64,000 bases of DNA from Astrocystis sublimbata (lineage: Eukaryota; Ascomycota; Sordariomycetes; Xylariales; Xylariaceae), in the NCBI GenBank assembly GCA_022453515.1, contig JAJNNY010000045.1, positions 62,001-126,000 on the forward strand. The letters are read 5' to 3'. The notes beneath the pieces are model-generated. The model did not search any database. It had not been told where the DNA came from and worked only from the letters and a program-made list of their open reading frames with translations. Made by a program: the position numbers and the translations under genes. Shown piece after piece: positions 33,247 through 54,651 of this stretch. Every line of letters begins with the position of its first letter. Positions within the stretch are counted from its first letter, which is position 1.

Positions 33247-33532
<286 letters not shown>

Positions 33533-33533
33533 C

Positions 33534-33551
33534 GTTTTCCCAGATGCCAAG
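33534..33551 (+). repeat. Left terminal inverted repeat of the island
   Basis: GTTTTCCCAGATGCCAAG on the plus strand. The minus-strand sequence at 53042-53025 is GTTTTACAAAATGCCAAG, a match at 15 of 18 positions. One base (C) separates it from the left heptamer. Confidence 0.65.
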
Positions 33552-34607
33552 CCCCCGACGAATCAGGTTTAGCGCTATCGCCCCTCTATCTCAGGCTCGG
33601 CTCAGTCAGTCGTCAGGCCATTGACTGAGGACATGATTTATGTCGGATTTATGCAGAGGGAAAACGGTGCCACAAAACCGTCTCATTTCACCGTCAACGG
33701 AATCATTTACATAGCTGAAAACGTCTTTACCTTGCCACCCGCATATACGAAACGTTAGGATTGTTCAAAAAACATGTTTCGAGGACGTAACAAAGACGAA
33801 CTGCGATATAAATTCACCAGTCCCCTTTAGCCCTCCTCTTGGGCAAAGGTAGAAAAATAAAAAAACTTACGTAGACCGTAGAGATCGCCTTGCAAGCATA
33901 TCACAGCAATACATACGTTCATATTGAAAACCATCGATTGCTCCAAACCTCTTCACTTCGTGGCCGATAGCTTTTGAGACTATGTGAAAAGTTGGTAAAA
34001 ACCATAGAAGTCTCGAGGAATAGAAGCGCCACTATTGAGTAGCAGGTGTTTAACTGTTGAGATACATCTACTCCAGCAATATCACGAGTATCAAAGACAC
34101 CGCTCATTTCAGCCAGCAACAACTAAATTATGGTGTCTTGCCTATCTCTTGCCAGCGACCAAAAACGAGACTGCCGAACTTCTCAAACTATTATCGACTT
34201 TCTCATCAAGGAACAAGGGCGTAATCCTGGCCTCGTGCTTATTGGATGCCAACGACGTCCGGCCATGTTGAGTATTTTTCGAGTTAGGCTGACTTGTTTG
34301 TCTTTGTTCTTTGCAAAACAAGGTGTATTGACAGGGTGACTTCCCAGTGGGTGACTGACTTCCTGAGGAAGTCAGCAGAGTGGCATGAGTGGCTAGGTCG
34401 GGGCTCTGCGTAGTGGTCCAACATCGAGGCTGTGCTGAAGAAGGTCGTAAGGGATTGGGATAGGGATGAAACGAGACTGCCAAAAAACCCGGTTTATTCG
34501 GCTAAGACCACTATTTAGGAAGTATACAAATAGCTCGCAAATTCTTTTTCTGAAATAAAACCAGACCCTACGTTCGCTTGCCGAATGAACACGAGATAAA
34601 ACAGCAA
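33552..34607. other. Left end region of the island, non-coding
   Basis: No gene is visible. At 34299-34344 there is a segment that recurs inverted at 52659-52701. Near 34,341-34,374 is a palindromic patch TGACTTCCTGAGGAAGTCA, with further copies of GACTTCC beside it, as expected for ends of a small Tc1/mariner-like or MITE insertion. Confidence 0.45.
34299..34344 (-). repeat. Subterminal repeat, inverted copy at 52659-52701
   Basis: Read on the minus strand it starts GGAAGTCACCCTGTCAATAC and continues through an AAAGAAC/AAGACA stretch. The plus strand at 52659-52701 starts GGAAGTCACCCCATCAATAC and continues the same way with a few differences and a short gap. The pair is inverted relative to each other, like the outer terminal repeats. 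Confidence 0.6.
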
Positions 34608-34928
34608 CTATATGCGCTTTTGAAACAGTACCTGTTCCGCCTCCTCGTGCTTCCCCAGATCACGAAGGACACCGGCGAGGTTATTCATGCTGGTAAGTGT
34701 ATCGGGATTCTCTCGGCCTAGTACTTTTTCCCTCAGCTTTAGTGTCTCCCGGTACATCGTTTCGGCCTGCTCGTACCTCCCCTGGTTGTCGAGGACGCCG
34801 GCAAGGTGATTCATGCTGGTGAGTGTAGACGGATTCTCTCGGCCCAGTACTTTTTCCCTCAGCTCTAGTGTCTGGCGATATAAATGTTCCGCGTCGCTGT
34901 GAAAACGGTCGATGACGAAGCCGCTCAA
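34608..34928 (-). pseudogene. Fragment with kinesin-light-chain-type TPR repeats
   Basis: An open frame of 106 codons carrying two and a half 42-residue TPR units (AEHLYRQTLELREKVLGREN, then AETMYRETLKLREKVLGREN). The 126-bp units are also visible as direct repeats in the DNA. TPRs of this type usually form the C-terminal sensor of fungal NB-ARC or NACHT receptors. No NB-ARC, no effector domain and no convincing start are found next to it, so this is a leftover of a larger receptor gene, either brought in by the element or truncated in place. Confidence 0.6.
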
Positions 34929-35280
34929 GCGTCCCCAACCCCATTTTAAGTGTTAATAGTTATGGATAATACATTTAATAGAACACTACGGGATGTCCAA
35001 TCCTTACGAAGAATTACATTATAACTCTATTACTATGGACACGGCAATTGGCTGTTACAACCGCCCGCTTCTTCGTAGCTCCTCTCGGACCCAGACTGTC
35101 GGGTCGAGCGGTTTCCAACAAGAAACAGTATATATAGCCCATGCCATCTATACTTCTGAAATGCCCTTCCGCTTTCGAGCCTAATAGAGAAGGACACCTA
35201 CGTATTATTGCCCTAGGTTTTGCAGACTTAGAGACAATAGTGCCGCTCAAAAATCAAGAGGTCGGTAAGAAGCAGACACT
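34929..35280. other. Spacer between TPR fragment and Rsm1-like gene
   Basis: 350 bp, AT-rich on the left. I see nothing coding that I can support. Confidence 0.4.
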
Positions 35281-36979
35281 TCAGCTTCCAGTCGTGCCAG
35301 TTGCTGCAGCAGTACGCGTAGGAGTAGCAGCAGCCGCCGTGGCAGTTCTTTCAGTTCCAACATTCTCGTCCTTCCGTAAATACGCCGTAGCAAGACGGCT
35401 GCTCGCCGTGCCCAGTCGACTTAGCGTCTGCTGCAATTTTTTCCTGCCCTTGGTATCGAACAAACTCTTAACGCGCCTCAATTTCGCCCACCGCTCTTTA
35501 TCCTTCGCATCTCGGGCTGCTATATCCTCTTCCTTTTCGTTGTCGAGCCCTTGTTCGTAGGCCTCATTCCCCATTATCTCATGATCCTCCCCTCTCTCAC
35601 CTTGGCCCCTGCCTTTCCTAGAAGGCGTCATGGGCCCATTGGCAGGTAGAGAGGCCGTCGGCCGGTGAGACATGGGCGTCCGGCGACTGGTCTTACTGCT
35701 GCGCTCGCCTTGCTGCCGGAGATAAGCGCTGTTCTTGAGCGTTTGCGCGAGTATCTCCCAGCCCGCTTTGATGTCCTTGCTCTTGGACCCTGGGTTCTGC
35801 TGGGCCGTGGGGCTGCGCCAGGGGCGGATGGGGTCGAGGTAGTCCATGGGTGCCGAGACTAGGATCTGCCCTGTCGCCTCGTCGACTTCTTTGCTCTTGG
35901 ACATCCAGAGGCGGAGACGTCGGAGACAGGTTGCGCAGGTTGCTGAGTTCGGGACGGCGCCTATGCGTGGGTTTGTTAGACCTTGCCAGCCTGTTAGGGC
36001 TAGTGCTAGGGCTACGTCGTTGGGGGATGATGCTGCTAGATTCGTATTTGGAGGTGGCGGGTCGGTGAAGAAAGTTGGGGGTAGATGAGATTTGGCGGCT
36101 TTTAGGTCGAAGGTTGGAGGGAGGCGGAGGTTGAAGAGGTAGGGGAAGAAGCTCTGTCTTGTGCATAGGTCGTCGTAGCGTTCGCGGAGAGAGGACAGGG
36201 CTTGCTGGGGGACTGCTAGATGTAGTCTCAACAGAGTCTCTAGTTGGGGGTAGATGTAGAGTTAGTATCGTTTAGAAGTCTTGCTCGATGCCTTGGCGAA
36301 CAAGAGAGTCGGTAATGTACCATCACAGCCATGTTTCCTCCACAGACAGTCCTCGTCATGACCGTCGACGATGAGCTCGGAGAATCTCTTGGCCAGTGCA
36401 GCTTCGACGTCGGAGCCAACCACAACAGGAACCTCCTTGCCCTCGATTGTCTTCGTATTTGTTTTGATAACCAGCTCTTTGTGGCAGAGAGTGCAGCGCA
36501 CCCGTTCTTTCCCCTTACATATCCATCCTCGCTTGGCCCATTCCATCTCGTTGGCAAGGTCGGGTTTCGGCGTCCACTCAGTCAGCTCCTGGAAGGTCTA
36601 GAGGCGCTTGATAAGCTCGTCGCGATCGCTTAGGCAGTATTTTGGGCGAGTGTCGTCAGTCTGCTGTTTCTTTGCACTGGAGCCTGGCCTCTCCGGTGTC
36701 CATTTCTTCAGGACGACATTGGATATGGCAGTGCCGCTGAGCGTCTTCTGGTTCGGGCTCGTGGTCTCGAGAACACCGACTCGTCGCCGCTTGTTGAACA
36801 GATCGAGACACGGTGACGGGGTCGCTGGTAGTACCAGGTCGGATCGATGAGGCTGGCGATGCCGTTTGTGTTATTGGTATCGGGCTATCTCTGGCGTCAT
36901 TCGATTCTGAGGGTTGGAAACTGGGCCTGGCGCCCATGCCTTGAATCAGGCTATTGAACTTTCGCTTCGTGGCATTCAT
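35281..36979 (-). pseudogene. Rsm1-like C3HC zinc-finger protein gene, frameshifted
   Basis: Reads as an Rsm1/NIPA-type C3HC zinc-finger protein involved in nuclear mRNA export. It starts MNATKRKFNSLIQGMG (36979), has DLFNKRRRVGVL, then YCLSDRDELIKRLQTFQELTEWTPKPD, the zinc-finger start WAKRGWICKGKERVRCTLCHKEL and HDEDCLWRKHGCD. An 81-bp intron (36320-36240; donor GTACAT, branch ACTAAC) joins to ETLLRLHLAVPQQ. Two defects show. First, the MNATKRK frame and the zinc-finger frame differ by one base, so a frameshift lies at about 36,770-36,900. Second, where relatives have a histidine- and cysteine-bearing EHRFFCPW-like stretch, this copy reads DPIRPWRSPTAQ, which loses about six residues with zinc ligands. 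The rest ends ARDAKDKERWAKLRRVKSLFDT as in the family. Probably a captured, decaying copy of a conserved gene. Confidence 0.7.
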
Positions 36980-37744
36980 CTTGTACCACTCCCTTCTTGC
37001 GGCTAAATTGGTTTAATGTCCGAACGGGGTGGTAGACCAGCGAGACTGGTTCTGTCGGCGTCGTTGTGGCTTGTTTTCACAAAGTCGTGTATTCTCGTAC
37101 AGGTACAATATCGGGGGGTGATATTATTTACTTGGTTGTAACTTAGAAGTGAATTTTGGGTCGTCGCAAGATGGCCGCTTCCATTCAACCCTTTGTTGCG
37201 AAGAAGAGTAGCACGAGCCGGTCTACCCTGATGATCAATAAAGTGAATAGACCAGATCACTCGTTTTTGAGATATGTGACGTGTAATGAATGGCAATGGG
37301 CTTGTCTTAGAATCAAATTATCCTCGTTATCACAGCTCAATCAGGGGTTGTTTTCCGGAGTTTTGATCGCATTTTGGCCGACGTTTAGCGCCGTATTGGT
37401 TGGAGGGGCGACCGGGTCTCAGCGCTCAGGTACAGGGGGGACAGCTCCGTGCTGGCGCGATGCGACAGAATTTCATCGTTTGACCATTCCTGTTATTCAC
37501 TTTCTGAATCATAACCTAAGATGGCAACCTGTCTTCCCCCAGCCGACATGGTGAGCTTATTTAACAGATCATTATGTACAACAACTACACTCTTACATCA
37601 CCGTTGGCACGCAGTCTCACGTTCACCCCTTTCACTCCTACAACAAGGAGGTAGTGGCAGAGACACATTGTATTTCAATTTTCACATAAAACATGGGTTG
37701 GACACTGATATTTGAGCGAGCATAGATGGCACATCCATCACTAC
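36980..37744. other. Spacer inside the island
   Basis: 765 bp upstream of the Rsm1-like gene and downstream of the peptidase. Only short frames without features occur here. Confidence 0.4.
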
Positions 37745-38709
37745 TCAAGAGGACGCCGCAATATCACCCCCCTCTTGTGTCAAGAAGTCCCCAACAACCC
37801 TCAACACCTTCTCCCGCAGTCTGCCGTCTTCCAAATGACACATGTGACCAGATCCAGGAAATGTGATCCAGCGCACCCGGGGAATGAGTTCAAAAAATGG
37901 CACCTGCGCAACATCGTGGGATGTGTCATATACACCATTATAAACGAGGGTAGGGGCGCTGATGTTGGCCAGTTGGGGAACAACAGTCCATGTTCGCAAC
38001 GAGCCATTGATGATCAGGGGCGAGGGGCCGTACATGGTTCGATATACCGTCGTGTCATCGGTCACATTGTGCAAAGATGCCAGCATCTCAACTGGTGGGA
38101 ATGGATCGGCGCGACAGACAAAATTCCTATGATAGAAGTTCATCGCGCTCTTGTATTCTGCGCCGTCGAATACGTTCTTCTCTTTGGCTTCGTCGAGCGC
38201 GCGTTTCATGTCCGGCGGCATCTGGTCTATGAGCCGCTCGACACCAAGGTCGGCCAGCTCTTTGCTTGCGAGCCCGCTGGCGAGGACTAGCCTCCGCAAA
38301 CCCTCAGGCCGACGGGCTGCAAATGCGGCGCCGAGCATACCTCCCCAACTCTGTCCAAGGATATGAAAGCCAGAACCTTGGCGTAGCCGCAAGTGGTCGA
38401 GCAGGTTGTCCAGCTCGTCTTGGAAAAGCTGCTCTTGCCAGAAAGACTCGTCACCGGCCTTTCCACGAAGATGTGTCGATGATGCGCAACCAATCTGGTC
38501 ATAGAAGATGACCGGAAGGCCATGATCGTGCCAAAGGGCCCCGAATGGCAGGAGGTACTCATGGCCGCTCCCGGGCCGCCGTGGATGATGACAACTGGAG
38601 TAGCGCTTGTGGAGAGGTTGCCTATGATCTTGTAATATGTGAAGCACTCTTGATCGATTGATGGGATCTTGAAGGGCGCCTTGCCTTCCAGAATCTGTGT
38701 TGCAGCCAT
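37745..38709 (-). pseudogene. Proline-iminopeptidase-like alpha/beta hydrolase, 1-nt deletion
   Basis: The start at 38709 (MAATQILEGKAPFKIP) leads into PVVIIHGGPGA, the oxyanion-hole HGGPG of the prolyl iminopeptidase/amidase group. After it the frame is wrong by one base. The other frame continues at once with GHEYLLPFGALWHDHG, VIFYDQIGCASSTHL, the nucleophile motif GQSWGG (Ser), and near the C-terminus the catalytic His in GSGHMCHLED. The full span is 965 bases, one short of 322 codons, so a single missing base near 38,561-38,572 explains it. Everything else is well kept, so the lesion is recent or a base-calling error. An intact form would hydrolyse N-terminal Pro or amide bonds in the cytosol. 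Similar hydrolases occur beside fungal peptide clusters. Confidence 0.75.
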
Positions 38710-39183
38710 GTTTGGGAGAGACAAGTGAAGAAGTTTGGAGAGTGATGATGCGGTGACGGGAAATAGAGTCAAGGCTGTGCATCCGGGATGGAATTTTGAG
38801 TAGTCCTGGGTCGGAACTGTTGATGTCGAGGCTGGTATTTTGCAGCTGCATTGTGACGTACATTGGTCTCACTGCAGCAACATTGATGGGCAGAACTCCA
38901 CTGGCAATTATATGTTGGTATTGGTATTTGCATGTACCTAGGTAGACAAGTACTTATACATTACCCGACTTCTGCCGCCTGTCGCTTACCAGTCGCATGA
39001 TATGCGCCCGTCACCATTTCCCCCCTACTTCGTCCTTGTCTTTATTTATTGCGACATTATACCATTTGGAAGTGCCTGCCAGGTGCATAAGTACCTATGT
39101 TCTTCTGATATCTCAACTGTGAACGCGCTCTGACATGCTGAAGTTCTCGCTCTTGTTCCAAACCCAATCATTCTTCAACTGAG
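38710..39183. promoter_or_regulatory. Divergent promoter region between peptidase and UstYa-like gene
   Basis: A 474-bp gap between a minus-strand and a plus-strand gene. There are short pyrimidine-rich stretches before the plus-strand start. No specific operator was identified. Confidence 0.4.
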
Positions 39184-40155
39184 ATGCCCGACTTTCTCAA
39201 CTATGCCCTTGTGCCCCAAAAGGAGGAGGATGATATCCAAGTGAAGAACACGTTGTCCCTCTCCACACAACTGACCCGCCTGTCGAAGTCATCGAAACGT
39301 GTTGTACTGCTCCTCGGCACTATGCTCCTAGGCTCCGTCTTTGTCAACATCGTTCTCATCTATAAACTGTTTGCCACGCCTTGGGCTCTTCTCGAAGTAC
39401 TGCCCACCCGATATGGTATGTTCGTAGATAGTTATCGCCTGTCAAATGACATTGTGAATAAGAAGCTCACACGTACTACCAGCCGGCCTTCGTCGAGATA
39501 TTCCTACAGAAATCCTCTCGAAAAGTGACTTCGATAGCATGAACCGAACAGTCCAGGAGGCTGCGTGGAGCCACGTCAATATGAAGCCTTGGAATGGATT
39601 TCTTGCGCTTGATGAGGAGTATACGATAGCTCAGGATCTACCGCACTCACAGCGGTGACCCTGGGACGTATCAAAGGGTGTCTACATCATGACAAGCTCT
39701 CATGAACTTCACTGTGTCGTAAATACCCCAATGCCTACTCTGAAGCCGCACCTTAGAGGGTCGACCCAACTAACACCAGCCTGTTACAGCACGTTCTTCG
39801 TCAATCTATCAACGAAGACCATGATGGGATAGTGGAGGCAGAGCGTACTTGGCCGTATCCTCATCTGATGCATTGCCTCAACGTTTTACGGGAGTCTGTG
39901 GTATGCAATGCCGATGACACACCACTCTATATTGGGCGACTACACAAGAATGCCCACGAAAAGTCACCAAGGGCAGGGACAGGGACGATAAAAATGTGTC
40001 GAGACTGGAACAAGCTGTTGGAATGGTCTCATGCTCGGAGTGCTTGTTATCGGCCGGTACACTGGACTGAAAAGGGCTTCAGCGAGCTGGATAGATATAA
40101 GAGTTGCCCAGATGGTTCCCGGCCATGGGAGCAAGTCGAAGACGAAATGGAGTGA
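39184..40155 (+). pseudogene. UstYa-like (DUF3328) oxidase gene with one nonsense codon
   Basis: Three exons: 39184-39415, 39483-39718 and 39790-40155. They would give 277 aa. The N-terminus has a transmembrane helix (VVLLLGTMLLGSVFVNIVLIY). Both family signatures are present: HELHCVHVLRQS, formed across the second splice, and PHLMHCLNVLRESVVCNAD. These HxxHC motifs bind the metal in UstYa-type oxidases, which cyclise or oxidise ribosomal peptides. The one defect is TGA at 39656-39658 (codon 136), where relatives have Trp in a QRWPWD-like stretch. All introns, phases and the rest of the frame are good. It lies next to a peptidase and a small secreted reading frame, as in RiPP clusters. Confidence 0.8.
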
Positions 40156-40381
40156 CTTGCTACGGCCTCATTTACAAACCTGTAGCGGTTGTTCTACGAT
40201 GGCCAAATCCATTCAATACACATACGAGTGCATTGTGTAATTTCCATGACCTACGATTTTAGATGCATATGAGTGTGTGTATGTGAGGTATATTGTGAGT
40301 TCATGTTGCTGTTCTTGACTGATGTCGTTACAATGTCTCCCCTCCACCACATGCAATCGATGAGCTACAATCTGGATGACA

Positions 40382-40729
40382 CTACACACTAGAGTCGTTG
40401 ATCCCAAACCGTACTTGCACTTCGTTAGAAGGCACACGCGACGATAAGCCCTGCGCTATCATCTTCCTGAACATCGTCATCCTCTGCTCGCTTGACTTTG
40501 GTAGTCTCATTCGACAAGGCCGCAGCTTCAGGGCAAGGGACCCTTTTGGCGTTGCTTCTGACACTACATGCATCTAGTGGGGGGATGTGTTAGTCTTTGA
40601 CAATCTCACCAGGTTCTTGGGAAAGAAAAGTTGTAAGGAGGTAGTGCTGGGATCGTGGACAGGAGTCGGCACAGCACCCACAACGGCAGCCACGGAAGCC
40701 ATGGTAGCAAGGATAGAGTTGAAATGCAT
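40382..40729 (-). CDS. Possible small secreted protein next to UstYa-like gene
   Basis: From ATG 40729 a short frame begins MHFNSILATMASVAAVVGAV, a good signal peptide, followed by PTPVHDPSTTSLQLFF. It meets TAG at 40574-40576. A same-frame stretch continues from ATG 40573 to 40382 (about 63 codons, basic). GTGAGA to CACTAG would make a 36-base intron between them, which is very short even for fungi. So it may be a 51-aa secreted peptide or a two-exon protein. There are no tandem core repeats with Lys-Arg cuts as in UstA-type precursors, so a RiPP precursor is only a possibility from position. Confidence 0.3.
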
Positions 40730-41581
40730 TGTGTGGCTGATTTGGTAGTCAGAGTGGTAGGAGGAGTTGTTTCTTTGACTGGTGGTATTCTGGCTACGGA
40801 TGGAAGACATCTCGGTCGGTGGTACCATAAATATACATCTCACGAACCCCATAGTTGACCATCATCCACTCCAATTGAACGACAGTCTGGCCTAAGACGA
40901 GTTTTGCTTGATTTGAGCCTGATCTGGCTGGAGAGAGAAGGCGGGGACCTTTGTGATTTGTGTGCAGAGAATCGATTTCCTGCAAAGTCCTGCAGGACAT
41001 TCACAGACTATCTACGTTGTACTCACTTGCGAAGTGCGGCGAAGTTACATATGCGTGTAACCTGAAGTAGGTCATAAGCTCGTATTTATTGCGCCTATTG
41101 GTCACATTCTTATGTTGGTTGTGTCTTGCATGCCGAAGATGTCATGTTTACGGCACAGAGCTGGGGGGCCATTGGCAGACAGAAATTTGTCGCCAAGTCC
41201 GACTTTTTACTGCAACGTTGATGGGGACAGTGGTTGCAAATCCTTTGTTTTTTTCTTGGTTTTTTCTCGTGTAGGCAGAGCCTTGCTGATAAATGTAGAG
41301 GTAATCCTGCTTCCTAACGGCACAGTTTCGTTGCAACTCATTCTGAACTCCAAACTGTCACCCTACTTCGGCTATCCATGTGGCGTCATGATCAATGTCC
41401 ATACGACGTTTCCGAAACGATGAGGGAAGGCGAACCCAGAAGATCTCCCATCCTCTTGAGCCGAGACACTTTCGTTCTCGCTCAACTACACCGCTTACAT
41501 ATCATACGAAACCTACCTATTCCGAGAATCTGTTTTTTTAAGCCTAAGGCTCATATTCATCACTCGCAACCTCCTGTCATC
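40730..41581. other. Spacer inside the island
   Basis: About 850 bp without a supported gene. Only short frames occur. Confidence 0.4.
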
Positions 41582-41728
41582 ATGCCAGACTCTTCCAAGA
41601 ACGCGCTTCTGGCCTTGACCGGCTCGCTGACAGGCATAACAACCGTCGCGTTCAGATTACGATTTTGGACCCGTAGACAGCACAAGTTGCCTCTGCTAGC
41701 AGACGACTGGTTTGCAGTCATTGCCCTT
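41582..41728 (+). pseudogene. First exon of a SAT4/rhodopsin-like membrane protein, truncated
   Basis: 49 codons from MPDSSKNALLALTG through a hydrophobic helix, then RLRFWTRRQHKLPLLADDWFAVIAL, which resembles the first membrane helix and the following loop of fungal SAT4-type (rhodopsin-domain) integral membrane proteins. A donor GTAAGC follows at 41729. I cannot find the remaining helices in the next kilobase. It therefore looks like a 5' fragment of a family whose usual length is 300-450 aa. Confidence 0.5.
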
Positions 41729-42207
41729 GTAAGCAGCCTACCTTATCCCAAGTTGCTTAGTTTGTGCTTGCTCACGTATTGTGATGGAAAGTTGTCTTGG
41801 ATCGGGAAGGCAATCTGTTTACTCATCAGGCGTTTTCAAGTCAAGAGGTCGAGGAGACAGTGTGGTTGGTGGCTGTGCAATTCATCAGCTTTAAGCCCGC
41901 ACGCCCAGCGCCGACCAGAGGATATACAGGAGTATCTTGAAAACTTGTAATGACGTATTTCGATACCCGTCAGATAGATAGACACCTTTAGCAATTCTCA
42001 TATTCATCGGTCTTGAAATACTCGCCAGATGTTCCTAGGAGATGAAGTGCTGGAAAACGCGGGCGGTAGGATGGTATATTGATTTGAGGTGCGATGGAGA
42101 GAAGTCATTTTCTTCCATATTGGGTTATTTACTGTCGGATGCAGCTTTTGCTGGGCCCTCGTGTCTATTTCCTGAAGTCGAGATCTACCTAGGCACCTAC
42201 CCGGTAC
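41729..42207. other. Spacer between SAT4-like fragment and NLR 3' end
   Basis: 480 bp. It would hold any remains of the membrane protein gene and the NLR terminator. Nothing recognisable. Confidence 0.4.
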
Positions 42208-45200
42208 TTACTGCCAAGAAACGTCGACACCATAATCAGAATCGTCGTTGTCGTCATCATCATCATCATTGTCGTCGTCGTCGTCGTCGTCGTCGTCGCT
42301 GATCACCATAACGACCTTAGCACGCCTGGTCTTGCAACCTCGCTCACTTGTTCTGCGTCGCTTCGCGTTTGGCTCCCCAGTCTCATCGCCACTTCCACTA
42401 TCCGCCATCTCTCTTACCCGTCTCTTGAGTCTCACCACATTCGTCCTCTTCGTCAGCTCATCCCACGTCTCACCGAGCCACTTCTGCACGACCGTCACCC
42501 CCTTTTCATCACCCGCCCTCTTGCCCGCATATTCATAATTCGGGTTAGCCCCTTTCTCGAGAAGAAAGCGGGAGAGCTGGGCCGAAGCCTCGGAGGTCTT
42601 CAGCATCGCGTTGTGAAGCGACGTCCTGCCTCGGTGCACCTTCTTAGATCTCTCATAATAGTCCTTCTCCCGGACTTCCGTCCTCGGGGCGGGGGGCCAC
42701 TCGTTCGCGACAATCTTCCCGCTTTTCCCACGGGGGAAGTCGATTGGCGCGCCGAGTCGAAGCAGCTCTTTGGCCAGTCGAATGGATTTGGATGACCTTC
42801 CGAGTTCCGTGAGCGACCAGCCCAGGAAGCGGGGGTTCAGCACCGGAACACCGAGGGTTGCGATCAGTCGGCCCCAGGTCTGGACAAGACGCTCTTCGTG
42901 CACGGCGCTCCGGCTGGTCGCGGAGAAGGCCGAAACGGAGAAGAGGATGGATCTCTTGTAGTGCAGCGGGATCAAGGTCTTCGCTGGTCGAAAGTCATCT
43001 GGGCTTAAAGAATAGGACGCCTCGGTAATGTCTGCTCCTACCATGCACGTCGGGCTTAGTACGAAGTCTTCCCACGCGGCATACATGTCGTCCGAGCTGG
43101 TCTTGAGCAAGTAGCTGGCCGCCAGGTTGTAGCTAGCCTGGTCCATGGAAGCGAACGCGTCGAGCAGCCATCTCCACAGTGCGACGTTACTCCCTTGCGC
43201 GATGGTCCTTAGGAACTCGCGCGCCTGTACATTGTAGATGAACAAGGTCTTTTCATCCAGCCTGTTCGTGCCCACGAGGATCTTCACCATCTCCAGCGAC
43301 CCCATCTTCGCTGCGAGATTCAGCGCGCTCCACGTCGACCAGAGGTAATTTTTCGAAAAACGCGACATGATCTTCTGCATTTGATCCAGCCTCTTGGCGT
43401 AGGTACACTCGAGCAGTATCAGCTCTAGCTCATCTGAGGACACTTTGCCCAAGGGAAGGTCGATCTGAACCGGGCGTGACGGACTGGAGTGCTCTTTATC
43501 GCGGTGGTTGTACATGTCTTGTTTGGAACTGAAGCCGACGTCGGCGTAGAAGCAGGAAGACACGGAACACTTCCAAGGCCGCGAGTGTATCTTCACGTGC
43601 GCGTTCCTTTCCGCGCGGCTCTGGAATCCCCTGCTCATGCCACAGCCGGGGTAGATGCATCTGTATATGTGCGTTCCGTAGTGTTTCAGTAGCGCCGAGC
43701 AAGAGCATTTGTCTGCATGTTTTGTACCGGTGCACAGCAAGTTCTCTAACTTCTGGAAGGTTTGGACCGAAACGGATGATAGAATCAGCGGGTTGAGGAC
43801 GGCCCAAGTCGAATCTGTGGTGCAGATGTTAATTCCCCTGTGATCAAAGTCCAAATGGCAGAAAGGGGAGAAAGGAAACTCCAAAACCTACTGTTGCTGA
43901 ATGTCCAATCAGTTTGTCTATCATCTTGACGGAATCTCCAGGTATCACTGATCACTTCGGAAATATCGTTATCTCCCCAATCAAGATCGTGGTAGACTAA
44001 GTCCGATTCCGTCTCATGGTGCTCAAATTTGTCATTCTTCAGTTTCCGCAGTACTTGAATGATCAAATCGACCAGTTCTGTGTGAATTGACGTATCATGT
44101 TGCATGTCTCTGCCAGAACGAGTCACTAAAGCGACCCATTGACTTGACGCGAATGACTGCAATCGATATTTGCCTGCGACTAGATCGGCACTCAGCTGTT
44201 CATTGGAAATGTTCAGCTGGAAGATATCGGACGAGAGGTAGTGCAATATCGAGGTCGTGAGCTCGTAGCGAGCATCTATTTCCCGGATGGAACCTTCGAT
44301 AGCTGAGCTGAAGATGTATCTTTCATCTCCGTCAGCATTGCCGCGGCTATTTGACTGTATGATGGAAGCTCAACTTACTCTTTGGCGGTGAAGTGTACGA
44401 ACTGCGGAGTCTCGTCTACAATCTCCAGGATAGGGCCACATATGCGCACGAAGTACACGCTGGATACGACAGAAGGACACAGGTTGGACGCTGGGTCAAT
44501 CAACAGTGCCTGCTCCAACTCGTATCTCGTCATGGGTGTTGAAGTGCATCCAATCCAACCCAGTATGGCCCTGGCTTTGCGACGCAGAGCGGGTGGTAGA
44601 CCATTTATCTTGGAAATTATTCTTCCGTAACTAGATGACATGAGTAATAGCTCTCTAATCGATTAATGGAGGGTAGGGTTATGTATCTTACGCATCGTTC
44701 AGATCACGGGGCAGAACTGTAAGTTCTCGCTCGATCTCCTCAACACTCGTAAGCTGCTCAGCATTGTCTAGCACAATTCTGGCGTATAGAAACATTCCTA
44801 GAGGTCGAGGATTAGAAACTAGATAAGTGATACACCCCACAAGGTTGAGCCAATGTCAATGAAATTAGAAGCACTATACCATCTGCGCGGGTAGCGATCG
44901 GAGCCAGAAGAGTCTGGATCTTGTCTTGAGCCTCTTGATCAAAGTCACACTGATCTATCCAGTCTCGATATCTCTGCTGAACATATTTCTGGATGCTGGC
45001 GGAGTTTCTCTCATCCACCCGAATGCCAGTGGCTTTGGTAGTCAGGATCTGGGCAATATCGTCTTCCGCCCGGCTACTCAAAAGTATTCTGATGCCAGGA
45101 CAGGAGGCGAGCCCCACCAACTGGTGCAGTAAGATTCTTCGTTCCACGGCCTCAATCTCGTCGAGCCCGTCGATGACTATATAAATCGGCCCGGAGATAG

Positions 45201-46369
45201 CCAGCAGCGTTTTGAGAAGTTCCGAGACGTAGTCGGTGCTACAGGCGAGTTCCCTCGTGTTGGATTCAACCACAACAGCCTGTGCCTCTTTGTATTCAGA
45301 GGCTAGTTGGAATGTCAGGGACTGAAGAATGGACCGCGCCGTAGTACTGCTTTGGTGCATATGGCTCGCGAACACAAAGAGAGCATTGTGACTCGCGCGG
45401 GCTTTTTTTAGGGCAACAGCGGCCAGGAAAGTCTTGCCTGCTCCTGGTATACCGTAGAACCACAATAACGGTGCAGCGTGAGATTTAGTGTCAAGCCAGC
45501 CCAGGAAGCTGGTGTCTTTGAGTAGCCACTCTGCTGAGCCATTGAAGGAGCGGTTCAATAACCAATCCAGGCGATCGTAGTACGTTTGGGGGGATATCTG
45601 AGTTCGCATTGCTTCGAATTTTTGGAGCTGCTGGAAATCGGTGGTCTGATCGAAGTGTTCTAATGCCTTGGTTCGAGCTTCGTGCTCGGCCCGAATATGC
45701 TGTAGCGAGACCTCATTCCTCAACAAAGCTGTGTGCTTTTCGAGGTGCTGGACAACAACATCGATTTTTTCGAGGCGCCTGGGCCAGATCGATTCGGATA
45801 TCAATCTCGGTCCTGAAACAGGTCAATTTATTATTCATCAACGCACAGAGTAAGTGAGAAGTGGAAAAGCGAAACTCACTTGACATGTTGAAGAATACGA
45901 GAACGATCACAAAGAACTCGAGAATGTCTCCGTAAAATAGGCTGAGCGCCTCTTTGAGCTTTTCGGAATCGGTGAAGATCTTGGCCACTTCAATAAAATG
46001 CGGCAGAGCATCGCCAATCTTTTCGAAGACGGCGGAGACGGCGTCGGAGAAGTGAGCGGCGTTTTTCGTCCATACTAACAGCATGCGGATAGGACCCCAT
46101 ATCAATGCCAGGATATCCGGCTTCACCTGCACGAAGGTATCGATCGTCGCTGCGTAGGCTTCCAATTTCCCAAGGAAACTTTTGATCTTTCCCAGATGTC
46201 GCATCCTCTGCTCAGCGTACGGTTTCTTCTGCACCTCTTTGATTGTTTCCCATACCTGCTCGATAGTAGTCGCCGAGAGCTTTTTGAATAGATCGTCATC
46301 ATTCAAGATGTTCTTAAGTCTCTTTTTGGCGGGCTCAAAAGCTAGAGCTGAAGGGTCGAATGAAGACAT
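42208..46369 (-). CDS. NACHT-type NLR with C2H2 fingers and poly-Asp tail
   Basis: Six exons, all in phase: 46369-45880, 45812-44880, 44797-44692, 44630-44379, 44319-43892 and 43814-42208 (1271 aa, intact). Residues 1-200: helical N-terminal domain of fungal STAND proteins (KIKSFLGKLEAYAATIDTF, then PDILALIWGPIRMLLVWTKN). NACHT: Walker A in GIPGAGKTF at about residue 284, Walker B in IYIVIDGLDEIE at about 373, then ILLSSRAEDDI and RADGMFLYARIVLD. HFTAKEYIFS ends the winged-helix-like part. Residues about 788-845 have two C2H2 zinc-finger patterns (CIYPGC, HVKIH; CSVSSC, HRDKEH). A helical, ankyrin-like region follows (SALNLAAKMGSLEMVKIL, then GRTSLHNAML). The tail has about 17 Asp from a GAC/GAT repeat. 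Fungal NLRs mediate non-self recognition and regulated cell death. It is divergent to the SNF2 gene. Confidence 0.85.
42248..42299. repeat. Trinucleotide repeat (TCG/TCA) encoding the NLR acidic tail
   Basis: A near-perfect run of ATC and GTC units on the plus strand, read as GAC/GAT on the coding strand. Such repeats change length easily, so the tail length may differ between strains. Confidence 0.7.
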
Positions 46370-47119
46370 ATTCGAGACTTATCGTACCTGTATATTTGGG
46401 AGATAGATTTCATCAACGCATTCCTCATAACGGACTCGGGAATATAAATGTATTATCAATACTCTCTGTGTAGTAGGAGCCGAACCCCTGTCGGTCAACC
46501 AACTGGAGCACGTCAAGTTTCTACACATCTTCATCATCCTTGTTGACAACCACAAGGAATGTGGCGCAGCTGGAAATCAATTGGCCAATGCATCCAATTG
46601 AATACGAATCGCCAATGGGCAAGACCACAATGCGCTGTTGGTCTGCACACCTGGGAGCTCTGCTGACACGGCGTCCGTTTCAGCAATTCATAGACACCCG
46701 ATCCTCAAGGCGGCAAACCGCTACCAATGTCTAATTGAAACGTTAGCTAATTTATACTGTTTATCGGGATTCGATTTACTATTCACCGTATCATCTACTT
46801 CTGATTGCATTAACAATGTCCAGGAGTGTGGGACACTGATTTAGTATCACAAGGCGTTTTCTTCATGGTTTCTGGTGTAGGAGACCTCTAGACAGGGGTT
46901 GCAGGCAACCGAGATTCTGATCGGCGGCGCATCAGCACGACGAAACACGCCTTATCTGCGGCCCCCAAAGCTTGCACAGCCAACTTTGACAGAAGACAGT
47001 CGGAGGATCCTGTATCTCTTTTGTTTTTCGTGCTCCCGACAAACTCGAACCACCTATAGTTCAAATCGATTCTCATTCATCTAAGGATTTCACCAATTAA
47101 CGGACTTCACACTCAAAAT
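46370..47119. promoter_or_regulatory. Divergent promoter between NLR and SNF2 genes
   Basis: A 750-bp gap between the two intact genes of the island. At 46,470-46,515 there is a short tRNA-like patch on the minus strand (GGGGTTCGGCTCC with a CCAGTTGGTTG beside it), too short to be a tRNA gene. No other feature. Confidence 0.4.
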
Positions 47120-50100
47120 ATGGCGCTAAAAAGAAAACGGCCTGTCTCCGAGAGCATAGCACCCAAAGTTCCGGAGAAGAGATCAAAAAGGATAGCGAAA
47201 AAGTCCGTTGAACCATCATGCATCGAGATTGATGAGATCACGGAAAAGATTTCAACTACTACAGATGTCGGAATTATGGTGATCCCATCACATACTCCAT
47301 CACCCCAACTGATTGTACCACAGCATGTCCATAATGAAGATGGTGAGTAAAGTGACAGCCCTTGACATCATATGGATCATGGAACACGTAACTAATGTAG
47401 TTGGTAGAGGCGACGTGCTGTACCATAGGCGAAGATTCAGTCTGTAGGATCAATAAGGCCGAAGGTAATGGTGCATCATCTTGATGTGCAAGAGCAAAGC
47501 CTTGTGTCTTGCTACTGCCCGAGAAAACGTTCGATACTAACGAGTTACAGGCCCAGATTCTTCGCACCAACGACCAAGCTTGCCATACGACGTTTGCTTT
47601 GGATTGGTAAGGGAATCAATTCCGAAAATAATGCCCTCCCAGCTAACAAGGTTATACAGCTATTATTCCAAATTAAATCCATGATATACGAAAACGAACC
47701 ACCTCTGCAAGCTGCACCTGTTCAGATTTCCTTGATAGACGACATGCTGAGTTTTCAATACGAGGGCACTGACGAGCGAGCCGGATTCCTCCTTTCGGAA
47801 ACTCTGGCACGACTATTGAGAGAATGCTCAGTAACTCTGGCTGCAACCATCGGGAAGCCCAGCACGCGATGTGATTCCAAATCCGCCTTCAAGTATAAAT
47901 CAATCCAAAACCGACCCCTCAGTCTTCTAGTCTATGGTCTGCGCTACGAGACAGAGACTGTGACTAAGATTCTAGACAGTGGCGGTTTGTTTCTGCAGCG
48001 CCCTGGGTTATCTGGATATGACAGAAGAGTCGAATATTTCAACCCTATGTATCTGATTCGACCTGGAGAGAAGATGCCGAGAATTATGGAACCCTCTGGA
48101 CAAGGACATTCGGATTCCTCCGCGGTTGAAACGACAGCAGATACACATGAGCATGAGGTAGTGACCAGCTTGGCGTCTCAAATATTTGACGAGGCCAATG
48201 GGCTCAATGTCAGAACTTCCCGAAACTTGAAACAGAGCCCAAGACTCATCTCTCACCTTAAGGAGTAAGTTGTTTCCACTCATCTTCGAAATTGCGTCTA
48301 ATCGGCTGACTTGATGGAAAACAAGACATCAAATGACTGCTCTATCAATGATGTTGGAGAGAGAAGAAGGGTCGGCGGATGGGAAGGGGCTATTCCCCAG
48401 CCTCTGGGAGTCATCGATAGAGGACGACAAAGAAAAGTGAGAGTTGCATCACATCCCGTCTTAAAGCTAGCGAACTGATATGACTCTCTAGATATCGGCA
48501 CGTAGTCACGGGGGCTGTTCAAAGTCTACCGCTTCCAGCGCTACACGGAGGAATTCTAGCTGATGTAAGGTTACCCAATCAGTATATCTACCATCTCTAA
48601 ACACAAACTTACTCGAAAATAGGACATGGGACTCGGGAAAACACTCTCAGCTATTGCCCTTATTTGCAATCACTTGGACAGACTTTCTGGTTCACCTCCG
48701 ACCCCGCAGAACCCCGTCGCTGGAGCGACCCTGATTGTGACGTCCAAGTCAAGTATGTACCTTATCGCCGACGTGAAAAATGGTCAAAGAATGATGGATG
48801 ATAAGTACCTGACTAACGACAAACAGCTATTTACGGCTGGCAGCACCAACTTCAAAGGTATCGATATTTTCGCCATTTCTTTTCTACTTAACTGCGAGCT
48901 GTGTTGACGATGTTGCGAGCAGCCATGTTCGAGCTGATGGGATACGCTTATCCATATACCACGGCCCTAACCGATCAGAGCACTTTTACCAAAGCAAGAG
49001 CTTTGATGTTGTTCTCACAACCTATGATACTCTTCGCTCTGATTGGAAGATCGACGGTCCTCTCTATAAGCACACCTGGGCCAGGATCATTCTTGACGAG
49101 GGTCCGTATGATAGCTAGTAACACCACTGCCCCAAAGCCATTGTGACCACTATTACCATTGCCCCTTCTCGGTACTGATTGTCATGTGCAGCTCACAAAA
49201 TCCGCAACCCCACCTCCGAGATCTTCCACGCAACATGTCAAGTCCAAGCAAAGAATCGATGGTGCCTAACCGGCACGCCCATCCAGAACTCGTTGAACGA
49301 TTATGGATCCCTCCTAGCCTTCATCGGTGTGCCGCCTTTTTCGACGCTTGACCAGTTCAAATACTGGATCTCACCCCGCGCTCGGGACGACTTACACGGT
49401 TACTGTCCCATACTCCTGCGAAAACTCGTCCTCGCCACCTGCCTACGGCGAACAAAGTCGACTCCCTGCTTATCTGAAGCTCTGAGGCTGCCGCTGAAGA
49501 TGGAAAAGGTCGAAATAGTAGAGCTCGCACCTGACGAAAGACAGGTCTACGACTTCTTCAAGCGTAGGTCGTATCTCTTATTAAGAAAAGGTCCGAACGA
49601 CGACGAAGGCTCTAAAGGAGCCGTTAGCCGCAGCTCAAAGTCCCGTGGCAGCTCGGCGGCGATGAAGAAACACGTGAAAGACGCAACGGAAGTCTCGCCG
49701 CGAAAGAGCACCGGCAATATCATAGTCCTGATCTCGGTGCTGAGGATGATCTGCAACCACGGCGAGGCTCTGCTTCCTAAGACCGCCCTCAACGCATGGC
49801 GTAACCGCGATTCGGACTTGGTGGGTTGGGCTTTGCTGCGAGAGGAGACGGAGGAGAAACGTACTTGCTACAGGTGTAGTGTGGCGATCGATATGTCGGG
49901 GACATCTCACCCAGAATTCGTGGATTTCGGCTGTGGCAAACATGTCGCATGTGAAGCGTGCGTTGGTCTTGAGGACGACGTAGCTCTGGAGTCGAGTTGC
50001 CCGATATGTCGACCGGCTGAGACGCCGTCTTTTTCCGGAATTTTGGATCCATGGCCGTCGTTAGCCATGTCATCGAAGCTCTCGGCTCTAGTGAAGAACG

Positions 50101-50980
50101 TTTCCTCTACACTTGAGGCTCACAAGACGAGCCGCAGGAAAAGCTCGCATACAAAGAGGTACGTAATCCCTCGAGCTTCTCTCTATTGTACAAATACTAA
50201 CAATTCTACCCTTCACGTACAGTGTCATCTTCTCACAATGGACTGGCATGCTCGACCTCGTGTCCGACACACTGCGTCCGCGATTAGAGTCCTCCGGCTT
50301 CTCCTTTGTCCGAATCGACGGCAGTTTAACCCTACAGCAGCGACGCATCGTACTAGACAAGTTCAATTCGGATGAAAACTGCGTGGTTATGCTAGCTACT
50401 ATCGGTGCTGTGAGCGAAGGGTAGGTTTCCATTCCCTCAAATCTTAGTACGCCTTGGCACATGTCTAGGTAGCATGTCATTTTCAACAATGCTATTCCAT
50501 GATGTGTGGAAAGAAGAGAAGCTGATTTATGCTGTCTTCAACATAGCATTGATTTGAGCGCCGCATCTGAAACGCACATATTGGAGCCGCACTGGAATCC
50601 CATGGCCGAGGCCCAGGCAGTTGATAGAGTCCATCGAATCGGACAGACGCGGGACGTGACGATTACCCGTTACTATGTGAAGGACAGTGTTGAAGAAGTG
50701 AGTACACCGATCAAAACATGCTGCTCAGAATAGAATCGATACTGACCATTGTTCACTGCAGTATATTAGATGGGTTCAAGTTAGGAAGACGAAGCTCATA
50801 AGTCAGTCTCTGTCATCTTCGGACAACAGTGCTGGACCAGGTCAAGAAGATGCACTGACTAAGGAGCGCTGGGAGGTAAGTCGAGCAGCTCTCGAGGTCA
50901 TGTCGTTGGCAACCTATGTCTGGCTTGAGTGTGAAATTTCTAATTATCTGACACAGCGATTACTGGACTACCTCAAATAA
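47120..50980 (+). CDS. SNF2-family ATPase with RING finger (Rad5/Rad16-like)
   Basis: Fourteen exons, all in phase: 47120-47342, 47408-47464, 47551-47606, 47660-48264, 48326-48436, 48492-48564, 48623-48752, 48827-48857, 48923-49101, 49192-50158, 50223-50420, 50547-50697, 50762-50875 and 50957-50980 (972 aa, intact). The N-terminus is basic (MALKRKRPVSE, a likely nuclear signal). The substrate-side region includes HQMTALSMMLERE. Walker A is DMGLGKT at about residue 378, DEAH is at about 485 (IILDEAHKIRN), and motif III is LTGTPIQNSLND. A C3HC4 RING lies inside the ATPase at about 712-765 (CYRC, GCGKHVACEAC, CPIC). The helicase C lobe has SVIFSQWTGMLDLV and RVHRIGQTRDVTI. It is a DNA translocase that could also be an E3 ligase. 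It sits inside the mobile island, beside the NLR. Confidence 0.88.
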
Positions 50981-51065
50981 GGTGATCTGTTGATTTCGAT
51001 ACTTGATCAGCGGCTGAACTTTGGATATGTATAACGAAGATCAATGTTCTGCCGTTACGCGAACA

Positions 51066-51375
51066 TCGTACCAGTCCGTCGTCCCACTGCGTACTGGTCC
51101 GACACCGTACTGGTACACACTGGACCAGTACGGGTTCAGACCAGTACAGACCGGAACCAGGTACGGCGGTTGATTTCGTATCAGCACCATCAGGACCAGC
51201 ACGATGCCGTACCAGTTCGTTGAGAAACCCGTTAGCAGTGACTATGGCGTGAACTCCTAGTCAGCCTCAGAAAACGCCAGAGGCGGAACGCTGCTGGGCG
51301 CCAAAAGTGACAGATTGATTGGCTGCTTTTTACTAGCGCATACCGACGGAATGGCACGTACCAGTCAGTGGCCAG
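51066..51375. repeat. Cluster of ACCAGTAC / GTACTGGT motifs in both orientations
   Basis: At least seven copies or near copies within 310 bp, some joined as palindromes (GTACTGGTAC). Such subterminal motif clusters are where transposases of hAT or similar elements bind. No transposase frame is next to it. Confidence 0.55.
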
Positions 51376-51886
51376 TGCAGAGAGGGCGAACTTGCGTCTT
51401 CAATATGTCGGACTCCCACCACATAAAACGACGATTTATTTGCCAGCGCTGTTTTCCCATTTACCTTCATTGAGCCTTGTTTTCTAGCTGCGCCTCAGCA
51501 CCCCGTCGTCAATGCAAAGCGCGTGCTGAGAAATTTGTTATCTGTTGCGTTGAGTTTTTAATTTGGCTTTTGTTTACTTGTTTGTCTTGCCACCTCGCTA
51601 TAAAATAGCTTATACTCTCCAGGCGAAAGATACCATTTCCGAATTCCTATTCTAAGATACGTTTGATTATATTAGATACAACTCAACGCGATTCTGTTGA
51701 TGTGAATCTGTGTAAGAAAGACGTCACTGGTCTTTTGCCAACTTTGGTGGGCTTACTCGCCGCGTCTAGTCTCTTTTTCCCGATGGAAGCGGTAACGTAG
51801 CAACGAAACTATTCTATATGTATAAATATATTTGGGAAGGCTCGGTTGAACTCGACTATGTCTGTAGCTTTGTTTACCACGTAGTT

Positions 51887-51887
<1 letters not shown>

Positions 51888-51919
<32 letters not shown>
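51888..51919. repeat. Homopolymer run of 32 C
   Basis: Uninterrupted poly-C directly after GTAGTTT. It is prone to length error in sequencing and replication. Confidence 0.9.
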
Positions 51920-51920
<1 letters not shown>

Positions 51921-52291
51921 ATATTTATCACCACAGGTGGCAGTACGAGGTAATTGGTGTTGTTGTAATCTCTCAATATTACTGCAAAATACTAGAATAA
52001 GGAGGATTAGAGATTAATGGAGCATTTCAAGCACCTTAACCTCCCCCGTAAACTACTCCAGTACACACATGCGTACCAACCGTGCCCCTCCTACCGACCC
52101 GTCGCAGGGGCGGGTGCAATATGAGAAATCGAGGCGAAGAAGGGCTTACCCTCAGCAGATCGTAACAACAAGGCTACTCTAAACAGATACTACTTCGGAG
52201 TTGAGCCCGGTGAATCCACGATGAAACTTTTTGACTAGATTCTGCTGTTCAGGTGGAGCGTCCGGGTTGAGTACGGCTTGGACTAGCAAGA

Positions 52292-52567
52292 TCAGTTATT
52301 TGGTAAACGGTGATGCTCCAGAAATAAGGAGCGTATGGGTTCTTGACACAGTAATAACCTCAATATCCTCGCGCCGGCCAGTGATCTGCGTAGCGTAGCG
52401 AGTGCAAAGCTCTGCGGCACAGGGCTCTTTCCCGAACATTGATCTCCGACGACGACGAGCTGAAGTCCCATATCAGTGGTCAGTAGGGCAGAGTGGTTAA
52501 GACGATTTACCTGATGCAACGCTATTCTAACCCTAATAAGCTCGCGCAGCTTGTCGACCTTGGTCAA
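52292..52567 (-). pseudogene. Dynamin-type GTPase fragment, decayed
   Basis: Reads VDKLRELIRVRIALHQ, then after an intron-like stretch LVVVGDQCSGKSPV, which is the P-loop of dynamin-family GTPases (usual GDQSSGKSS). The following bases, read in another frame, give LCTRYATQITGRREDIEVITV, the next conserved dynamin block. A stretch of about 15 codons plus a frame change separates the two. Start and GTPase remainder are missing. Dynamin-like genes often lie near NLRs in fungi. This copy cannot function. Confidence 0.65.
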
Positions 52568-53024
52568 AATGGCGACGTTGCCAGAGTGCGCGTCGCGAGT
52601 TCGAAATGGCAGTTGAACGCTTGGACCACTAAGCCAAATTAATGGGACTGACTTCCTAGGAAGTCACCCCATCAATACACCTTCAACAAAGAACGAAGAC
52701 AGAAGCCGAAACAATTGCACTACTGTGATCTTTTGATACAACAGGTATTTCATTCCCAGTAGGATACTTAGGCCTCACTAAACAGGAACATTTGCGTCTT
52801 ATATTGTAAACAAAACGAAGCACTTTATTCCCACATTAATACGTAGAATGTCCATTTTTAGTTAAACGGTCGCCTCTGATTTTTGTCGTATATTTACGGA
52901 GAAACGTTATTGATCGTTACGGGATTTTATGCATCTGGACTTGTGCAACAGCGGGCTCTGCTTAGGCCAAATTCCGGCCAAGTTCGGGCTGAAAAGTGGC
53001 ACTGCTCAGGTGAAGTCCTAAGTT
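52568..53024. other. Right end region of the island, non-coding
   Basis: Contains the inverted partner of the left subterminal repeat (52659-52701) with TGACTTCCTAGGAAGTCA at its edge, and otherwise AT-rich DNA. There is no gene. Confidence 0.45.
52659..52701 (+). repeat. Subterminal repeat, inverted copy of 34299-34344
   Basis: Starts GGAAGTCACCCCATCAATAC and continues to AAGACA. See the partner at 34299-34344. The edge forms TGACTTCC-TA-GGAAGTCA, as if two inverted repeats met at a TA dinucleotide. Confidence 0.6.
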
Positions 53025-53042
53025 CTTGGCATTTTGTAAAAC
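53025..53042 (-). repeat. Right terminal inverted repeat of the island
   Basis: On the minus strand GTTTTACAAAATGCCAAG, 15 of 18 identical to the left repeat. Ten bases (TTACTTTCGT) lie between it and the right heptamer, against one base on the left, so the true ends may be a little outside the repeats. Confidence 0.65.
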
Positions 53043-53052
53043 TTACTTTCGT

Positions 53053-53696
<644 letters not shown>

Positions 53697-54651
53697 TTTC
53701 GCCTGGCTTGAATCTAAAGGATCTGAGATAGTCTGGTCTGGTCTGTCTAGTCTAAAGAATTATAGGACGATGGCGCGTACTTATAACCCGAGGACAATTG
53801 CACCTAATCCGCTGGATTCGAACATGTCTTTTCCATGATGACAGGGATGGACGATGCCGTTGTCTTCAGACGGATACCGGCCTGCTGCTGAATGGCCGCG
53901 ATCCCGGCTCGCTCATCCACAACCCCGTCGCAAAGATACCACTTCGAGCATCATGCTCCGCGTCATTCCAGGTAGGTGGTATTCGCCCCAGCTGAGAATC
54001 TCGAGCTAAGATTTCTGTACCGATGTAAGCCAGCAATGCAAGCCTGCGCACAGCCAATCCAATGCAAGGACTGCTATCACCGAGATCGCGATTCTAATTA
54101 TTTACGTCGGCGGTGACAGCACTTTTCCGCCACTTAGTTCGCACGCCTCCTGAGCTCAAACGCCCTAGAGGCGCCATTGTCGTGGATTTAGTGCAGTGAC
54201 GTGCTGTAGTTTGGACGGGTTTGCCAACAATGCCAAGACATCCAAGACGTTGGCGATTGGGATTGGTGGAAATCCAATGGCTGGAATTCGCACGATTGTC
54301 CCGGTGAGCCGGTCAGTCCTCTTCAGGAATGTGCCTTGTGTGCTAAGTCGGCGGCCAACAACCGTGATATGATCATAAGCTGTAAGTGGGCGGAAAATCT
54401 AAACACAAACATAGAGAAAAGATAACAGACCTTGCGCGATGTCCCTGGCATAGAAACCCATAACGAAGTGTTGGTCAACATCAGGTGAGGCAATCCTAAA
54501 TGGTGGGCATTGTGTTCGCTAATACGAATCACAACACCAGCTCCGCTTGCAGGTAGATACTTAAGTAACCAATGTTCATAGAAACATTCGACATCTCGAG
54601 GGTCTGAATATATCTTCATGTTACTGCGTAGCGACACTACTAGTCTCGCGG
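53697..54651. other. Intergenic between xylanase 5' end and RAD2 3' end
   Basis: The 955-bp gap contains the xylanase promoter on its left. A minus frame of 104 codons at 54323-54637 has no recognisable features. No other feature. Confidence 0.45.

Follow-up and report, generated by a model that had tools for sequence, protein, structure and literature searches.

A 19.5-kb island that interrupts a GH11 xylanase gene represents a repeated, cargo-carrying mobile family of its own genome. The same ends are found at several loci around different flanks and contents, and NLR genes, which resemble immune receptors, are concentrated inward of them. These elements resemble the Starships in many respects, but Starships, giant transposons of the Pezizomycotina, carry a DUF3435 captain, a tyrosine recombinase, inside the element at the 5′ end, and none was found in the window or in those parts of other copies that were examined. 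On a modest balance of probability, the family is Starship-like but lacks a captain, transports NLR genes among others, and is either mobilised in trans or now stranded.

The window referred to here is the whole 64-kb stretch analysed, C130:62001-126000, from a genome of 42.6 Mb in 189 contigs. Positions given without a contig are those of the window, and the left and right ends of elements are designated L and R. Coordinates are in Table 1.

The interrupted xylanase gene

The first-pass annotation described the two xylanase halves as complementary parts of a single gene on the same strand, split by 19.5 kb, and the present analysis bears this out. The exons are on the minus strand at 53696-53431, 53332-53205, 53115-53053, 33525-33424 and 33353-33247. 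Each of the three introns is bordered by GT and AG, the splice phases fit as had been claimed, and the exon total is a multiple of three. The sum of 687 bases (229 codons) given earlier is wrong; with the heptamer counted once, the total is 666 bases, or 221 residues and a stop. It should be pointed out that this misstatement leaves the split-gene argument untouched.

The GH11 profile PF00457 matches eight pieces at three genes in the genome. Four of the pieces belong to the split gene and tile profile positions 1-49, 47-92, 109-146 and 146-178, which rules out that the halves come from two different xylanase genes. When one exon from each half was searched separately, the same solved xylanases were matched at complementary stretches, e.g. 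the structure 7zq0_A at 59-99 and 123-154. The GH11 reading frame and splice sites are unbroken on both sides of the island.

The heptamer GGTAGTT, reported in the first-pass annotation at both xylanase junctions, is present at each. That no insertion occurred, and that the gene was divided by an assembly join or an ancient rearrangement, is extremely improbable. The case is judged from one assembly, and this is what such a reading has in its favour; the exact heptamer at both breaks, the intact exon phases and the coincidence of the breakpoints with ends that bound unrelated DNA elsewhere all speak against it.

Table 1. Features of the island and of the related elements (window positions, except where a contig is named)
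Feature	Position	Strand	Remarks
Xylanase 3′ part: remainder of exon 3, one intron, exon 4	33247..33525	-	profile, structure matches, exon phases
GGTAGTT, left copy of direct repeat (GGT core)	33526..33532	+	
Conserved L terminus	33526..33863	+	76% identical to that of the C135 copy, 339 columns
L-end inverted 18-mer	33534..33551	+	15/18 identical to R-end 18-mer
TPR remnant	34611..34952	-	kin to tail of NB-ARC-TPR gene of the C24 copy
NuBaID-type zinc-finger protein (zf-C3HC, NuBaID_C)	35284..36597	-	
Alpha/beta hydrolase (proline-specific-peptidase-like)	37748..38953	-	nearest named relatives: Xylariaceae
UstYa-like exon	39757..40152	+	
ORF	41318..41947	+	fungal rhodopsin domain in one distant relative
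NLR-type gene region: DUF7708, NPHP3_N/NACHT, winged helix, ankyrin	42211..46378	-	five ORFs, intact or decayed
SNF2-type helicase (SNF2_rel_dom, Helicase_C)	48623..50730	+	RING match below cut-off
Conserved R terminus, read as non-coding	52181..53059	-	79% identical to that of the C106 copy, 914 columns
Perfect palindrome TGACTTCCTAGGAAGTCA	52649..52666	.	~400 bp inside R end
R-end inverted 18-mer	53025..53042	-	exact match to GTTTTACMAAATGCCAAG
GGTAGTT, right copy of direct repeat (GGT core)	53053..53059	+	
Xylanase 5′ part: exons 1, 2, part of 3, two introns	53060..53696	-	profile, structure matches, exon phases
Convergent L/R pair	C130		19.5 kb (xylanase island)
Convergent L/R pair	C135		28.2 kb
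Convergent L/R pair	C111		6.0 kb
Convergent L/R pair	C106		10.1 kb

Conserved ends and the repeated family

The first-pass annotation had proposed a search for the same ends with different flanks, and end copies were indeed found at other loci of the same genome. With the window included, the left 375 bases of the island have matches at six places, and the right 460 bases have nine matches on seven contigs. Common to both ends is an inverted 18-mer, GTTTTACMAAATGCCAAG, which is found at 26 places in the genome with no more than two mismatches, 13 of them exact, versus five places for a reversed control. Two-mismatch matches on C1, C2 and C46 were excluded because no recognisable terminus follows.

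Four loci display convergent L and R ends, and across these pairs the L and R 18-mers are identical at 14 to 18 of 18 positions. A fifth, probable element is on C24, where the L end, near 336.68 kb, is degenerate and the R end is at 393.5 kb, a span of ~57 kb. Ten L-type ends have no recognised partner (two each on C13 and C113, and one each on C109, C120, C105, C112, C102 and, near 640 kb, C24), and C35 has two L-like words in divergent orientation. An L partner is likewise missing for the R ends on C140 and C116, and the terminal 46 bases are absent from the C116 match. On C126, two L-type ends point towards each other across 2.0 kb (C126:106846-108890); a single open frame is found between them, which encodes a GCN5-like protein with GNAT acetyltransferase and bromodomain.

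The L-type end within C105:545101-551400 is ~0.7 kb from a leucyl-tRNA synthetase frame. As it faces this frame and an exocyst gene, it is taken to be a solo end or a very short element. One and the same end, with an identical flank, is found at C13:13333 and C88:8976, at the starts of two contigs; this is a duplicated stretch, perhaps subtelomeric.

The direct repeat and its GGT core

GGTAGTT occurs nine times in all on the plus strand of the window, and therefore the evidence resides in its exact position at both breaks. The other copies are informative in this respect. GGT is found at all six readable R ends, ten bases from the inverted 18-mer, and four of the six continue as GGTAG. At L-type ends it is found five bases from the 18-mer in 15 of 17 cases (C88 not counted), the exceptions being C112 and one of the C35 words; this spacing is kept at the L end of C102 but not at the degenerate one of C24. 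The fixed distance between GGT and the 18-mer in successive copies suggests a recognised core site. From GGT onward, the four L/R-bounded copies share runs of 7, 6, 3 and 3 bp. Repeat positions beyond GGT agree in 10 of 16 cases (P=0.0016), a figure that comes from a small sample of four L/R pairs, two of which share 3 bp only. As there are only four such pairs, and as the L words form two families, GGTAG.. and GGTTC.., the observations have limited independence.

The first-pass annotation interpreted the junctions as an insertion with a 7-bp target-site duplication. The insertion is strongly supported; an arbitrary 7-bp duplication is not the preferred reading, given that GGT is found at one end after another and that the length of the shared run varies. 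In appearance the repeat is closer to the recognised core of tyrosine-recombinase integration than to a random heptamer duplication. A fixed core, a variable repeat, core-like target sites and inverted arms at unequal spacing are the traces expected of a tyrosine recombinase.

Cargo of the island and of other copies

DNA similarity between copies is mostly at the termini, with scattered remnants in addition. The cargo of the island itself, from the NuBaID-type protein to the SNF2-type helicase, is listed in Table 1, as is the TPR remnant near the L end, which is the tail of another NLR. Over 69% of the query, the hydrolase of the island shares 88% identity with a protein of Xylariaceae sp. FL0255; its leading named matches are mostly from Xylariales, and the host is therefore probably xylarialean. 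Pfam scans near other ends covered 50 ORFs or pieces of ORFs, plus two ORFs of C126. In the C135 copy, Pfam identifies NACHT-ankyrin, two HET domains and a hAT fragment; BLAST adds relatives of two genes from other copies, NB-ARC-TPR of C24 and PNP_UDP of C106. The C106 copy carries PNP_UDP and NACHT, and the C24 copy NB-ARC-TPR and NPHP3_N. A NACHT-ankyrin gene is inward of the C120 end, and PNP_UDP followed by NPHP3_N is found on C113. The C111 copy has a FAD-binding/BBE pair and a GGACT protein, and no NLR was seen among its contents. The ORFs scanned inward of the C109 and C13 ends encode a SACS-domain protein and an AMP-binding/NAD-binding protein.

Association of NLR genes with the ends

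The NPHP3_N profile (PF24883) has 83 matches in the genome, which were merged by hand into 76 loci. Eight of the 76 are within 15 kb of the 25 ends in the inward direction and none outward, with 0.59 expected (P=1.5e-7). The counts are six inward to none outward within 10 kb (P=3.4e-6) and eight to one within 20 kb, where the single outward locus is inward of another end. The list of ends was drawn up without C88 (a duplicate), the second C35 word, C1, C2 and C46; positions for the C24 L end and C116 are approximate, and some intervals are shortened by contig ends. The ends were chosen by terminal sequence and not by NLR content, with the exception that the starting island carries an NLR. As C120:1228 is a mirror copy of another locus, seven of the eight inward NLR loci are independent.

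Near the start of C120, the region 4001-6313 (C120:4001-6313) forms an inverted duplication that is 99.7% self-identical and has mirrored NLR copies. This may be either a real palindrome or an assembly artefact.

Search for the mobilising enzyme

That no recognisable transposase is present inside the island holds as far as it was tested, i.e. by Pfam scans of 30 of the 95 island ORFs with at least 70 aa and by comparison with DUF3435. Genome-wide, PF11917 (DUF3435) has four matches at three places, and none of the four is near a family end. The three places, on C129, C136 and C187, are the only DUF3435 loci detected genome-wide, and each has in-frame stops or an intron. Relatives of the DUF3435 peptides of this genome were sought in 231,593 bases comprising the window, parts of ten copies and a positive control; the control was found and no relative was detected in the window or the copies, a single C109 match (E 0.38) being at chance level. 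Coverage of C24 from 336 to 364 kb for a captain is by the genome-wide profile search only. No family end was found within 3.5-3.9 kb upstream of the three DUF3435 loci with up to five mismatches allowed; these regions have five weak words that lack the conserved terminus, together with one match of 80% over 35 bp.

These findings bear on the proposal that the elements are derelict Starships, each descended from an element with a DUF3435 captain of its own that was later deleted, and that the family reflects ordinary decay within the superfamily. The ends and accessory genes are of the same kind, DUF3435 remains persist at three places in this genome, and derelict Starships with degraded captains have been described (PMC11623301). 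On the other hand, no captain-like remnant is found in the 231,593 bases, although the repeat of the xylanase copy is perfect and its host gene unbroken, and the three DUF3435 loci have no family end in the stretches of up to 3.9 kb searched upstream of them. Like the derelict elements of that report, the island family combines Starship-like cargo with the lack of a working captain, but it differs in keeping well-preserved ends at many loci and at least one clean-looking insertion, and degraded captains were not found near the copies examined. This origin is considered unlikely.

A check of the copies for DUF3435, MULE and hAT transposases, as the first-pass annotation had recommended, was positive only for hAT: a fragment is present in the 28.2-kb C135 copy, and DUF3435 and MULE were negative in the parts searched. 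There are three hAT loci in the genome, and the one inside the C135 copy is a Restless-like C-terminal fragment. MULE is represented by one locus, on C18, outside the family copies. KDZ has no match in the genome and its control was equally silent, as were the control genomes for NDC10_II (Crypton-type), which likewise has no match in this genome. A gene common to C135 and C24 was considered as a transposase candidate and rejected, there being one chance-level helix-turn-helix match only.

Could a cut-and-paste (DDE) element such as a hAT move the family, with the repeat being a target-site duplication that prefers GGT? The main evidence is that one of only three hAT loci in the genome is in the C135 copy and has the likeness to fungal Restless-type elements, and a fixed GGT duplication would fit the pairs equally well. 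However, the target-site duplication of hAT elements is 8 bp and adjoins symmetric terminal repeats, whereas no repeat here is of that length and the ends are asymmetric, the 18-mers being at unequal distances from the repeat (5 vs 10 bp). Moreover, none of the 30 scanned island ORFs has a hAT match, the sole MULE locus is elsewhere, and KDZ gave nothing, although its control was silent too. Mobilisation by a DDE transposase thus appears decidedly unlikely.

Comparison with Starships and a proposed mechanism

In 20 Starships, direct repeats of 2-12 bp are reported for 19 and terminal inverted repeats for 18 (PMC12153272), and Starship accessory genes include NLRs (PMC12506042). The island family shares with Starships the short, variable direct repeat that is part of the target motif, the terminal inverted repeats (here an inverted 18-mer at each end), single and diverse copies with changing cargo, NLR accessory genes and insertion in an ascomycete. 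Starships range from ~15-20 kb upward, and one survey applies a 15-kb minimum; copies of 19.5, 28.2 and probably 57 kb fit this size, but those of 6.0 and 10.1 kb do not. A GGTAG-type core is absent from the target sites in Table 1 of PMC12153272, where the nearest by eye is the A(N)TAGT of the Galactica family. As no captain was found in the window or the sampled copies, the island family is not filed as a Starship, though it would work like one.

In the favoured, captain-less scheme, a tyrosine-type site-specific recombinase would bind the inverted 18-mers and join the two ends, probably in an excised circle. Integration would then take place by strand exchange at GGTAG-like sites, and the exchanged core would become the direct repeat. 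The xylanase gene may have been hit because its coding strand reads AACTACC at the site. As no captain is found in the window or in the examined parts of copies, the enzyme would either work in trans or be lost by now, which would make the elements non-autonomous shuttles for NLR and other genes. The occurrence of the same ends around different flanks and contents at several loci counts for this scheme, as do the excess of 18-mer matches over the reversed control, the fixed spacing of GGT, the agreement of repeat positions beyond it, the inward NLR loci and the reported features of Starships. Counting against it are the missing recombinase, the small number and limited independence of the L/R pairs, two of which share 3 bp only, the Restless-like hAT fragment in the 28.2-kb copy, the two copies below the 15-kb Starship cut, the C111 copy with no NLR seen, the several partnerless L ends, and the facing L-type ends of C126, which are unexplained by the L/R model. 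A broader proposal, rather unlikely on present evidence, is that the family represents a class of captain-free fungal cargo shuttles: a trans-acting recombinase would move whatever is situated between 18-mer and GGTAG ends, and so disperse NLR/HET self/non-self genes in a cassette-like manner.

There is no settled view of how fungi reshuffle their NLR genes among loci. A Sordariales survey links reshuffling to clustering and unequal crossing-over (PMC12258605), and an NLR-carrying end family that lands in host genes would be a further, testable route. The literature surveyed, mostly open-access titles and abstracts, contains no recognised account of a captain-free end family with NLR cargo or of Starships in Xylariales. 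The family also raises the question of whether Starship-type ends are movable without a resident captain; surveys that start from captain genes would miss such a case.

Other features of the termini

No tRNA or Rfam family was found at the island ends. A small protein encoded in the R terminus was considered and rejected: frames break between copies, and a 123-aa ORF has a chance-level Pfam match only. Degradation of the repeat by RIP is not supported despite a mildly raised TA/AT ratio in three 2-kb intervals (0.93-1.05 in 34001-36000, 50001-52000 and 52001-54000); the ratio is 0.63-0.75 between these intervals, and 1.08 at one place far outside.

The R terminus also contains the perfect palindrome. 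With at most one mismatch it is found at ten places in the genome, eight of them in family copies, and its control at none. Collinearity with the R end of the island is interrupted in C24 and C135 by 6-7 kb at about the palindrome. A run of 32 C is also present inside the island, at 51888-51919.
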